Assembly (NCBI RefSeq): GCF_000179575.2
Contig: NC_015636.1
Span: forward strand, 248,001 to 312,000
Source of the DNA: Methanothermococcus okinawensis IH1
Lineage (GTDB): Archaea; AGJL01; Methanococci; Methanococcales; Methanococcaceae
Reading direction: 5' to 3'
Length of the DNA stretch: 64,000 bases
Positions 2,871 through 44,948 of this stretch are shown piece by piece. Every line of letters begins with the position of its first letter. Within the stretch, counting starts at the first letter, position 1. The position numbers were made by a program, and so were the translations under genes. Below the pieces are notes generated by a model, which had not been told where the DNA came from, ran no database searches, and saw only the letters and a program-made list of their open reading frames with translations.

Positions 2871-4118
2871 ATGTTTAAAAAACCAAAAGGAACAAGAGAC
2901 TTTACACCCTTAGAAATGAAAAAGAGAAGAATCATCGAGAACAAATTAAGAAATGTATTTGACAGCTACAATTTTAAGGAAATAAACACCCCGACTTTTG
3001 AAAGTTTCGAGCTCCTATCTAAAAAAACTGGTGAAGATATAAGAAAACAGTTATTTGTTTTCAAAGACCATGGAAACAGGGAGATGGGACTTAGACCTGA
3101 GCTCACATCATCGGTAGTAAGATTCTATATAAATGAGCTTAAAAACCTTCCAAAGCCGTTAAAATTATACTATTTTGCAAACTGTTTTAGATACGAGAAC
3201 CCACAGGCTGGGAGATATAGGGAATTTTGGCAGATGGGCTGTGAATTGATAGGCAGTAAATATCCAATAGCAGATGCAGAGATTATAAATTTGGCAATGG
3301 ATGGACTTAATAAAATAGATATGGATTATGAAATAAATATAGGTCATTTAGGGGTGTTAAGGGGAATATTTAAAGAATTTAATCTCTCAGAGGATGAGGA
3401 ATTAAAAATAAGGAGATTGATTGATAAGGAAGATTACAAAGGTCTTGAAAATTATCTCTCCGAAATTAAATCATCCGATGAATTGAGGGATATAATATTT
3501 AAAATATTAAATTCAAAAGGAGATAAATCAGTAATATCTGATTTAAAGGAAGTTTTAAAGGATTATCCAACATCAATTGAAGCAATGAATAATTTGGAGG
3601 AAATCTTAGAATTTGTAAAACATGATAATATTGTAGTAAATTTCGGTATAGCAAGAGGATTGGATTATTATACAGGAATGGTGTTTGAAATCTACGGAAA
3701 GAAGGAAGGAGCTCGGCAGGTGTGTGGTGGTGGAAGATATGATAATTTAATAGAATTATTTGGAGAAAAGCCTACGCCAGCAGTTGGTTTTGCCTATGGA
3801 TTTGACAGGGTTATGCTAAATATTGATGATTTTGAAGTTGAAGATGAAAGCATATTAATAATACCAATTAAAAAAGATAAAAAACTTTTAAAGGAGTGTT
3901 TAAATATTGCAGATGTGCTTAGAAAAAGTGGAAAAAGCGTAGAAATTGAATTAATGAACAGAAAATTAAACAAAGCTTTAAATTATGCCAATGCCGTTGG
4001 AATTAACAAGGTAATAATCGTTGGTGAGCAGGAGCTCAGTAAAGGTAAAGTTTCATTGAAGAATATGAAAACAGGTGAACAGGAGCTCGTGGGTTTAGAC
4101 GAGTTGGAAAATATTTAA
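2871..4118 (+). CDS. hisS: histidyl-tRNA synthetase
   Basis: This 415-residue class II synthetase has motif 1 near the N-terminus ([10 protein letters not shown]), motif 2 with [12 protein letters not shown] and [15 protein letters not shown], the HisRS-specific peptides ARGLDYYTG and CGGGRYDNL, and a C-terminal anticodon-binding domain from about residue 325. The start ATG is preceded by GGTGAAATA. The length is normal for archaeal HisRS. The HisZ paralogue is excluded because both HisRS-specific histidine A motifs are intact. Confidence 0.95.
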
Positions 4119-38705: not shown

Positions 38706-39851
38706 TCAACAATTTTCAACAATTTCTTTAATGCTATCTACAACATATTCCACCTGTTCCCATGTTAAACCATAAACACTCATTTTTATTTCTTTTGTGG
38801 TTCCTCTCCTTATACCGCCGATTCCTCTTTTCTTCAATTCATCATAGAAGAAATAACCTCTTCTTTTATCTTTCTGTGCAATTTCATCGAGCACAGGCGT
38901 TTCAAATTTTATTAAATCGTGTTCCTTTGGTTTTATACCAATTTGATTAAATCCAATCTCTTCGAGCTCATGCACTACAAACCTAGTTTTCTTAATTTCT
39001 TCATCCCAATGATTAACCCTTTCCACAATGTGCGGGAAGCTAGCCATAAGTGATACTATCGGAGCTCCTCTACTTGTGCATCCAAGCATCTCAATCTCTT
39101 TAACAGGATGAGTTTTTGAAGTTCTCAATACCTTATCTGCAAATTCATCCCTTATTGACAATATACCAATAGGACCAGATGCTGCCATACTTTTATGTCC
39201 TGAACATGCTAAAAAGTCGGCATTTAATTTTTTACCTTTTACGGGCATTCTTCCAACGCTATATGCACAATTTAATAAAAATGGATAGCCCCTATCCTTT
39301 GCAATTTTTCCTACTTTTTTGGCATCTGTAAGGTTTCCATAATCTCCATCCACATGTGTAAGCAGTATTAAACCTATATTTTTACCTTCATCTTCTAATT
39401 TATCTATAACCTCTTTATAACCTTCGGGATTTATCCTATATGTTGGATAACCCTCATTTTTAACCTCTGCATAATTTAATTTTGCCCTTTCCATAGCAAC
39501 ATAGGATGTGTAATGGGCGTTTTCATCGAGAACTACATAATCACCTTCATTACATATCGAATGCATGACTATAAATTTACTCTCCCGAGCTCCGTGTGTT
39601 GGTCTCGATATATCCATATTCAGAAATTTTGACATATCATTTAAAAATTCACAGATTGGCGGTGTTTCAACCTTATCAAGTCTTCCGCCACAGTAATCAC
39701 AAACACTGTATCCATCACAGTATTCATATATTGCTTTTTTTGATTCTACTGGTATAATTCCCCCTCTTTGGATAGGATTTAAATCTATTAATTCTCTTCC
39801 CATATGTCTTTTAATATTTTTGTATTTGTCGAAATTTATATTTTCAGTCAT
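38706..39851 (-). CDS. pscS: O-phospho-L-seryl-tRNA:Cys-tRNA synthase (SepCysS)
   Basis: The 381-residue PLP enzyme has IQRGGIIPVESKKAI, the Cys-rich CDYCGG loop, RPTHGARESKF, and the PLP Lys in SGHKSMAASGP. It converts phosphoseryl-tRNA-Cys to Cys-tRNA-Cys, the indirect route used by methanococci with SepRS. A sulfur donor is not encoded nearby. GGTGATTTT precedes the ATG. Confidence 0.93.
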   Translation of the reverse strand: MTENINFDKYKNIKRHMGRELIDLNPIQRGGIIPVESKKAIYEYCDGYSVCDYCGGRLDKVETPPICEFLNDMSKFLNMDISRPTHGARESKFIVMHSICNEGDYVVLDENAHYTSYVAMERAKLNYAEVKNEGYPTYRINPEGYKEVIDKLEDEGKNIGLILLTHVDGDYGNLTDAKKVGKIAKDRGYPFLLNCAYSVGRMPVKGKKLNADFLACSGHKSMAASGPIGILSIRDEFADKVLRTSKTHPVKEIEMLGCTSRGAPIVSLMASFPHIVERVNHWDEEIKKTRFVVHELEEIGFNQIGIKPKEHDLIKFETPVLDEIAQKDKRRGYFFYDELKKRGIGGIRRGTTKEIKMSVYGLTWEQVEYVVDSIKEIVENC

Positions 39852-43402: not shown

Positions 43403-43431
43403 AAACCTAATCCCAAAGGGTTCTTAGGTTT
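43403..43431 (-). promoter_or_regulatory. archaeal SECIS element in the 3' UTR of the HesB-like selenoprotein gene
   Basis: On the minus strand this segment folds as AAACCTAA, internal bulge GAA, CCC, loop TTT, GGG, single A, TTAGGTTT. The outer stem has eight perfect pairs and the inner stem three G-C pairs. This is the known archaeal SECIS plan: a long stem, an internal loop with GAA on one side and A on the other, then a short G-C stem with a small loop. It starts four bases after the TAA stop of the selenoprotein gene, the usual place in methanogens. Confidence 0.9.
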
Positions 43432-43435
43432 AGCA

Positions 43436-43729
43436 TTAGCATTTTCCGCCTGCACCTTTAATAGCAAGATATTTCCCATAGAACATTGACTTTTTTAATA
43501 CAATATTGACTTCATTGAGGAATTGTCTTGCCACCTTATCGATATATATTTTAAATTCCCCATCGTAAATTAATTCATCATTTTTATTTGGGGATTTTAT
43601 ATCTATTCCAAATTTAGGTCCTCCTCATCCAAATCCTTCGAAATATATTATTAATGTATCAGACCCAGCCTTTTTAGTCTTTTCTTTTATAAATTCCATA
43701 GCCTCTTCGGAAATACTAACTGGTATCAT
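43436..43729 (-). CDS. HesB-like selenoprotein (A-type iron-sulfur carrier-like) with in-frame UGA
   Basis: Read from ATG 43729 (preceded by GGTGATATTAT) to TAA 43436-43438, the gene has 97 codons, with one in-frame TGA at 43625-43627 as codon 35. The sense is clear on both sides of it: IPVSISEEAMEFIKEKTK leads in, and FEGFG-Sec-GGPKFGIDI follows, where A-type scaffold proteins (IscA/HesB) have their first Cys in a GCSG-like loop. The protein ends KGAGGKC, with one Cys in place of the usual CGC pair. The SECIS hairpin after the stop supports Sec insertion. Selenium-containing HesB-like proteins are known from selenoproteome surveys; their role is unsettled. Standard gene finders would miss or truncate this gene. 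Confidence 0.9.
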
Positions 43730-44123
43730 ATAATATCACCTTCATACTGGAATAATAATGAATGTTATTTCCACATTAATATTGGATTTTATAATATTTA
43801 AATGTTGTGTCATAATTATGAACATGTGGGTGTTTAAGTTTTCTTATATCCTAAATATGGATTAGTGTAAAATAGAATATTATAATAAAAATATAATAAA
43901 AACTTAAAAATAATATAATAGAATATAATAAAACATTAAAATGTATTTAAAACATTATAAACTGAAGTATATTATATAAGTTATATAAGTTATAAACTAT
44001 ATATAATAATTTAATACATACAAAATTATGATTATAATTTATAAATAAAATATAGTAGTAAATATTACTAAAAAATTTTAATATTAACATGATTAACATT
44101 AATTTATAAATGGAGTGATAGAT
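43730..44123. other. intergenic region between divergent selenoprotein gene and psmA
   Basis: This 394-base spacer contains the start regions of the leftward selenoprotein gene and the rightward proteasome cluster. It is rich in ATATAA stretches (43970-44060) with no coding signal, so several TATA boxes are possible and none can be singled out. Confidence 0.35.
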
Positions 44124-44948
44124 ATGCAAATGGTTCCAGCATCAGGATATGATAGGGCAATTACTGTATTTAGTCCAGAAGGAAGACTTTATCAGGTAGA
44201 ATATGCAAGAGAAGCTGTTAGAAGGGGCACTACTGCCATAGGTATTAAATGTAAAGACGGAGTTATTTTAGCAGTTGATAGAAGAATAACAAGTAAATTA
44301 ATAGAGGTATGCTCCATAGAAAAGATATTCCAAATAGATGACCATATAATGGCAGCAACTTCTGGGCTTGTAGCGGATGCAAGGGTTTTAATAGACAGAG
44401 CAAGGGTAGAAGCTCAGATAAATAGGATTACATATGGAGAACCTATAACAGTTGAAGCACTTGCAAAAAAAATCTGTGATATTAAACAGGCATACACACA
44501 ACATGGCGGAGCTCGGCCATTTGGATTATCCCTATTAATTGCAGGTATAGATAGGCATAGTTCAAGATTGTTTGAAACAGACCCAAGTGGTGCATTAATT
44601 GAGTATAAAGCAACAGCAATAGGTTCTGGAAGACCTGCTGCAATGGAAATCCTTGAAGAAAAATATAGTGAAGATTTGACACTTGAAGGAGCCCTTGAAC
44701 TTGCCATATATACATTAGGAAAAACCACAGATGGTGAATTAAAACCTGAAAATGTAGATATGGCAGTGATTAAATCAGAAACAAAAACTGTGGAAAAACT
44801 ACCATTCGAAGAAATTAAAAAACTTGTAAAAACAGTGTCAGATAAAATAAAGTCTGAAGAAAATGAAGAGGACGAAAAATTAGATGAAGAAAATGAGATT
44901 TATGAAGATAGCAATAGTAATGATAGCTACGAAGAAGAAAACGAATAA
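44124..44948 (+). CDS. psmA: proteasome subunit alpha
   Basis: The 274-residue protein has the alpha-subunit signature GYDRAITVFSPEGRLYQVEYAREAV and lacks the catalytic N-terminal Thr of beta subunits. It forms the outer gating rings of the 20S proteasome. The final 35 residues are a strongly acidic Glu/Asp/Asn tail. The longest frame opens with GTG at 44115; GGAGTGAT directly precedes the ATG at 44124, which is chosen. It heads the conserved cluster that continues with the SBDS gene. Confidence 0.95.
   Translation: MQMVPASGYDRAITVFSPEGRLYQVEYAREAVRRGTTAIGIKCKDGVILAVDRRITSKLIEVCSIEKIFQIDDHIMAATSGLVADARVLIDRARVEAQINRITYGEPITVEALAKKICDIKQAYTQHGGARPFGLSLLIAGIDRHSSRLFETDPSGALIEYKATAIGSGRPAAMEILEEKYSEDLTLEGALELAIYTLGKTTDGELKPENVDMAVIKSETKTVEKLPFEEIKKLVKTVSDKIKSEENEEDEKLDEENEIYEDSNSNDSYEEENE

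Follow-up and report, generated by a model that had tools for sequence, protein, structure and literature searches.

Selenoproteins related to HesB are known from methane-producing archaea, and the HesB-like protein of Methanococcus maripaludis has been proven to be one by mutagenesis and 75Se labelling (PMC11097638; PMC2933860); a disruption mutant is viable and retains nitrogen fixation (PMC11097638). A 2026 review lists this HesB-like protein with its family model TIGR01911 and the motif UxGP, in which U is selenocysteine (Sec; PMC13188914). The archaeal SECIS element of the kink-turn-like GAA/A type is a hairpin in the 3' UTR with a GAA/A internal loop, an upper G-C stem and a short loop, and mutagenesis of the M. 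maripaludis element identified the two A residues of GAA as indispensable (PMC11881835). Bacterial SECIS elements are located inside the open reading frame and adjoin the UGA (PMC2933860). The A-type Fe-S carriers IscA, SufA, ErpA and HesB (PF01521) have a C-terminal tail with two Cys residues that is highly conserved in the family (PMC7144353).

Here we report that a 64,000-nucleotide stretch of the Methanothermococcus okinawensis IH1 genome (hereafter the window) carries what is almost certainly the Methanococcales HesB-like selenoprotein gene, translated and equipped with the SECIS element described below; this degree of confidence excludes the function of the protein. The gene corresponds to those of M. 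maripaludis (MMJJ_08070) and Methanocaldococcus jannaschii in family (TIGR01911), Sec within UxGP, single copy, UGA and a SECIS in the 3' UTR. Translation of the minus strand from 43729 to 43403 with TGA read as U gives a product of 97 residues (MIPV...EGFG-U-GGPKF...GAGGKC) with U at residue 35, followed by TAA, such that the 97-codon frame of the original prediction, broken by nothing other than TGA at codon 35, is exact to the base. That prediction was right in both observation and interpretation, while its term "hidden" overstates the novelty: NCBI curates a model of the family, the M. maripaludis member has been proven experimentally (PMC11097638; PMC2933860), and the selenoprotein is already known rather than new. 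The features of the locus, and those of orthologous loci discussed below, are listed in Table 1.

Table 1. Coordinates of features in the window and at orthologous loci (window positions unless a locus is named)
Feature	Position	Strand	Remarks
HesB-like selenoprotein CDS	43436..43729	-	97 codons and TAA; ATG at 43729, stop 43438-43436
In-frame TGA, codon 35, predicted Sec	43625..43627	-	33/33 genes have a single TGA, in this alignment column; aligned by profile to PDB 2apn
Codon 97 (TGC), C-terminal Cys	43439..43441	-	sole standard Cys of the protein
Archaeal SECIS	43403..43431	-	8-bp stem, GAA/A kink-turn-like internal loop, CCC/GGG stem, 3-nt loop
Likely promoter	43790..43825	-	AT-rich TATA-like box immediately preceded by the inverted repeat ATGTTCATAATTATGACACAACAT (43825-43802); predicted from sequence
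Upstream inverted repeat	43790-43825	-	also seen at L002, L005-L007, L009, L010, L016, L017, L019-L027
Second SepSecS-family protein	38706-39851	-	probably SepCysS
psmA, proteasome alpha subunit	44115-44948	+	divergent to hesB
SECIS-less locus L071 (G027)	~3856-3858		stop codon
SECIS-less locus L072 (G033)	~3981-3983		stop codon
SECIS-less locus L070 (G029)	~3272-3289	-

The assignment to the HesB-like family holds, since the product scores 89.1 bits against NCBIfam TIGR01911 (HesB_rel_seleno; cut-off 66.35); against Pfam Fe-S_biosyn (PF01521) it scores 29.1 bits (cut-off 26.3). Scores against TIGR00049 and the IscA, SufA and ErpA models fall below the respective cut-offs. The bacterial HesB-like selenoproteins belong to the same superfamily and likewise contain Sec, but the window protein is below the cut-offs of both bacterial models, with 22.1 against 85 for NF038090 (IscA_HesB_Se) and 19 against 40 for NF041239. 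The UxGP motif is present as U35-G-G-P, and Sec (UGA) occupies the first ligand position in all 33 genes of the order that we identified (see below), whose products are 46-87% identical to the window protein.

The predicted fold is the IscA fold. AlphaFold, run on a 30-row alignment, returned a model with pLDDT 91 and pTM 0.82 in which residues 95-97 are disordered, and Foldseek matched this model to IscA (with and without [2Fe-2S]), SufA, HI1723 and AQ_1857 with TM-scores up to 0.71. The best match was IscA 1x0g (E 1.1e-5, TM 0.71), and E-values for IscA with [2Fe-2S], SufA and HI1723 were 1e-5 to 5e-5. The highest TM-score among the ten family-fold PDB matches was to DsrR (0.73, with a weaker E of 7.9e-3), which we take to be an IscA-fold protein lacking cluster ligands, and because of this cluster binding is not assured. 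In a profile alignment to HI1723 (PDB 2apn) residue 35 falls on the first conserved Cys, which bears out the claim that codon 35 lies where A-type carriers place Cys. The window protein thus has the fold and the position of the first ligand in common with A-type carriers, and differs from them in having Sec for Cys, in a two-Cys tail cut to one terminal Cys and in its low identity (10-19%) to solved structures. In place of the three ligand Cys residues by which A-type carriers are recognised it has Sec as the central residue and a single C-terminal Cys; the latter had been pointed out from the sequence, which is correct for this gene, and most family members share it. Specifically, the C-terminal residue is Cys in 32 of the 33 genes. 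The window protein ends in GGKC, whereas seven genes, all of one genus (g3) that we take to be Methanococcus, have Cys-Cys at this end.

A role as metal or cluster carrier has, in our judgement, about an even chance. Besides the match to DsrR, the lack of the two-Cys tail, the disorder of residues 95-97 in the model and the tolerated disruption in M. maripaludis, with nitrogen fixation retained (PMC11097638), weigh against it. The main alternative, which we consider possible but rather doubtful, is that instead of carrying clusters the protein has a redox or selenium-handling function, with the IscA fold presenting a Sec35/Cys97 pair. The placement of the sole standard Cys at the extreme C-terminus, the near-invariance of that Cys and the absence of a second tail Cys outside the g3 genomes speak for such a role, as does the assumption, made in the review, of redox roles for most uncharacterised selenoproteins (PMC13188914), while the fold and the position of residue 35 match those of Fe-S carriers. 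Speculatively, Sec35 and the C-terminal Cys might together bind a metal or Fe-S cluster, or might form a selenenylsulphide redox pair.

We searched for orthologues in the M. okinawensis genome and 60 related genomes. Within the same order 32 orthologues were found, giving with its own a total of 33 genomes with one orthologue each and exactly one internal TGA per gene; when read out individually, the UGA was at the same aligned residue in every gene. A search of the phylum with the TIGR01911 family model identified the same 33 of 36 genomes. No version with Cys in place of Sec was seen among the 33 genes of the order, nor was there any homologue with an ordinary stop at the TGA: all 33 read through it, with approximately 60 conserved codons following. 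Pairwise dN/dS was mostly <0.2 both before and after the UGA, albeit with small counts per pair, a pattern that points to purifying selection on both sides. Three small congeneric genomes (G006, G007 and G011) gave no match to a HesB-like gene; the gene loss is likely real in G011, which is estimated to be 99% complete, and G011 and G006 retain tRNA-Sec, SepSecS, PSTK and SelB over the cut-offs. In one draft genome (G022, locus L026) Tyr replaces the terminal Cys, a change that also weakens the lower stem of the SECIS at its outer end.

Downstream of the TAA there are four nucleotides (TGCT) followed by the hairpin AAACCTAA-GAA-CCC-TTT-GGG-A-TTAGGTTT, in which three C-G pairs are capped by a TTT loop; the original prediction had described the distance to the stop codon, the 8-bp stem, the GAA/A loop, the three G-C pairs and the three-base loop without error. 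The hairpin shares its GAA/A loop, upper G-C stem, short loop and 3'-UTR position with the described archaeal SECIS (PMC11881835); its lower stem closes with A-U beside the loop, as opposed to G-C, which is no difference of kind. In a custom scan for GAA/A hairpins that covered both strands of the window, this element scored best, and 20 single strands of 64 kb, shuffled by a first-order Markov model, yielded one equal or better score. With the family covariance model, whose training set included this sequence, the window gives a single hit, at this site (41.9 bits, E 2.6e-7). An Rfam scan of the window gave no match at gathering scores, and the sub-threshold matches of a relaxed scan of the gene region were to unrelated eukaryotic or riboswitch families.

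The hairpin is present in the same place in 30 of the 33 genes, that is, in 29 orthologues besides the window gene. In these 30, GAA (AAA once) starts 2 to 22 nt past the stop codon and 185-214 nt past the UGA; the window SECIS begins 4 nt past the stop, whereas the lower stem of the Methanocaldococcus type takes in the stop codon and, as a rule, some of the codon for the terminal Cys. Among the 25 distinct sequences 94% of the base-pair cells are paired (12-59% with shifted partners), 81 of 300 cells carry two-sided compensatory changes and 9 of the 12 pairs vary on both sides. The covariation score was 0.685 compared to 0.242 for shuffled alignments, and shifting the partners gave no more than 0.300. 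Both A residues of GAA and the A opposite them never vary, which agrees with the mutagenesis of the M. maripaludis element (PMC11881835).

The M. okinawensis genome also encodes the Sec machinery, i.e. tRNA-Sec (59.9 bits), SepSecS (507.7 bits), PSTK (350.5 bits), SelB and SelD, each of which exceeds the cut-off of its family; the SelD gene itself carries a TGA and has a SECIS 13 nt past its stop. A second SepSecS-family protein is encoded approximately 4 kb from hesB; it scores 114.8 bits, against 507.7 for the full-length main SepSecS, and is probably Sep-tRNA:Cys-tRNA synthase (SepCysS). Taken together, the aligned TGA, a SECIS with covariation and this machinery support Sec at codon 35, as was originally proposed; none of the three refuting findings that the original prediction had named was observed. 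According to the mechanism we envisage, the 3'-UTR hairpin with its kink-turn-like GAA/A motif would make the ribosome read UGA codon 35 as Sec, with Sec-tRNA made by PSTK and SepSecS and delivered by the archaeal SelB. The product would then fold as an A-type Fe-S carrier (IscA/ErpA/SufA) in which Sec replaces the first of the cluster-ligand Cys residues, and the usual Cys-Gly-Cys tail gives way to a single Cys at the very C-terminus. For the window gene we infer Sec insertion from its orthologues, through the published 75Se labelling in M. maripaludis, and we found nothing that argues against it.

Two other readings of the UGA have to be weighed. Insertion of another residue, e.g. Trp or Cys, would also give the full-length product, and for the window UGA it is conservation, and only this, that speaks for readthrough; given the complete Sec machinery, a SECIS of the experimentally defined type and an orthologue labelled with 75Se (PMC11097638), we regard it as highly improbable. 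Equally improbable is that the TGA is a true stop in a decayed pseudogene or between two short ORFs, with the hairpin acting as a transcription terminator, which a hairpin followed by T-rich sequence, as here, resembles; we rejected this reading on conservation and covariation, as all 33 genes have the TGA at one and the same residue and conserved codons beyond it, non-synonymous changes after it are few, and the loop A residues are invariant while the stem covaries, something a terminator does not need.

In the upstream region of many hesB orthologues (Table 1), the TATA-like box is immediately preceded by an inverted repeat with arms like TTGTG/CACAA or ATGTT/AACAT, placed as an operator would be. 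The window gene is divergent to psmA, a pairing found in 21 of the 33 orthologous loci; the hesB-psmA neighbourhood gave no functional clue.

The three orthologues in which no SECIS was detected behind the stop all belong to Methanocaldococcus (G027, G033 and G029) and have kept the UGA. For each of them a filters-off covariance search of 7 kb around the gene revealed no credible relocated element, and scanning 2 kb to either side of the UGA permissively for GAA/A hairpins gave weak sites only. We do not claim as SECIS a hairpin spanning the UGA in G027 and G033 (CTTT-GAA-GGATTT...AGGTCC-AAAG), which is largely dictated by conserved codons and absent in G029, or a weak AAA-type site on the opposite strand approximately 930-950 nt upstream, in the psmA region. 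The SelD genes of all three genomes have a normal SECIS. In most Methanocaldococcus-like and Methanococcus-like loci, including that of G029, hesB is followed by an acyl-CoA synthetase gene. In G027 and G033 this gene is replaced by a convergent gene for an iron-sulphur flavoprotein-like protein, with 27-32 nt between its end and the hesB stop, and the 3' end was rearranged before the two diverged. In G029 there is an internal deletion, and the lower stem alone remains (7 bp, closed by GGAA; GCTAACT-GGAA-AGTTAGC). The SECIS was probably lost in two separate events, which is the shortest reading of the tree; a single loss is possible. An assembly error in G029 is possible, and so is a recent loss.

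Over the 60 codons after the UGA, G027 and G033 differ by seven synonymous and no non-synonymous changes, a pattern expected with a probability of approximately 2e-5 if there were no constraint (simple binomial with ~79% of sites non-synonymous). Judging from this pattern, the full protein is therefore probably still made in G027 and G033, by way of a cryptic SECIS or with none. Should these genes indeed still make it, Sec insertion might do without a canonical SECIS, or might use one of another form, possibly inside the ORF, which we consider a tentative suggestion, on balance unlikely.

In conclusion, the window gene adds one more genome in which this known archaeal selenoprotein is confirmed, and the gene set yields a clean collection of SECIS elements backed by covariation. 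Members of the family combine an Fe-S-carrier fold with a shortened Cys tail and a Sec that is likely to be a ligand. The SECIS-less orthologues, a by-product of the analysis that may be new, are the part worth following: if confirmed, they represent natural test cases for what the archaeal ribosome needs in order to read UGA as Sec.
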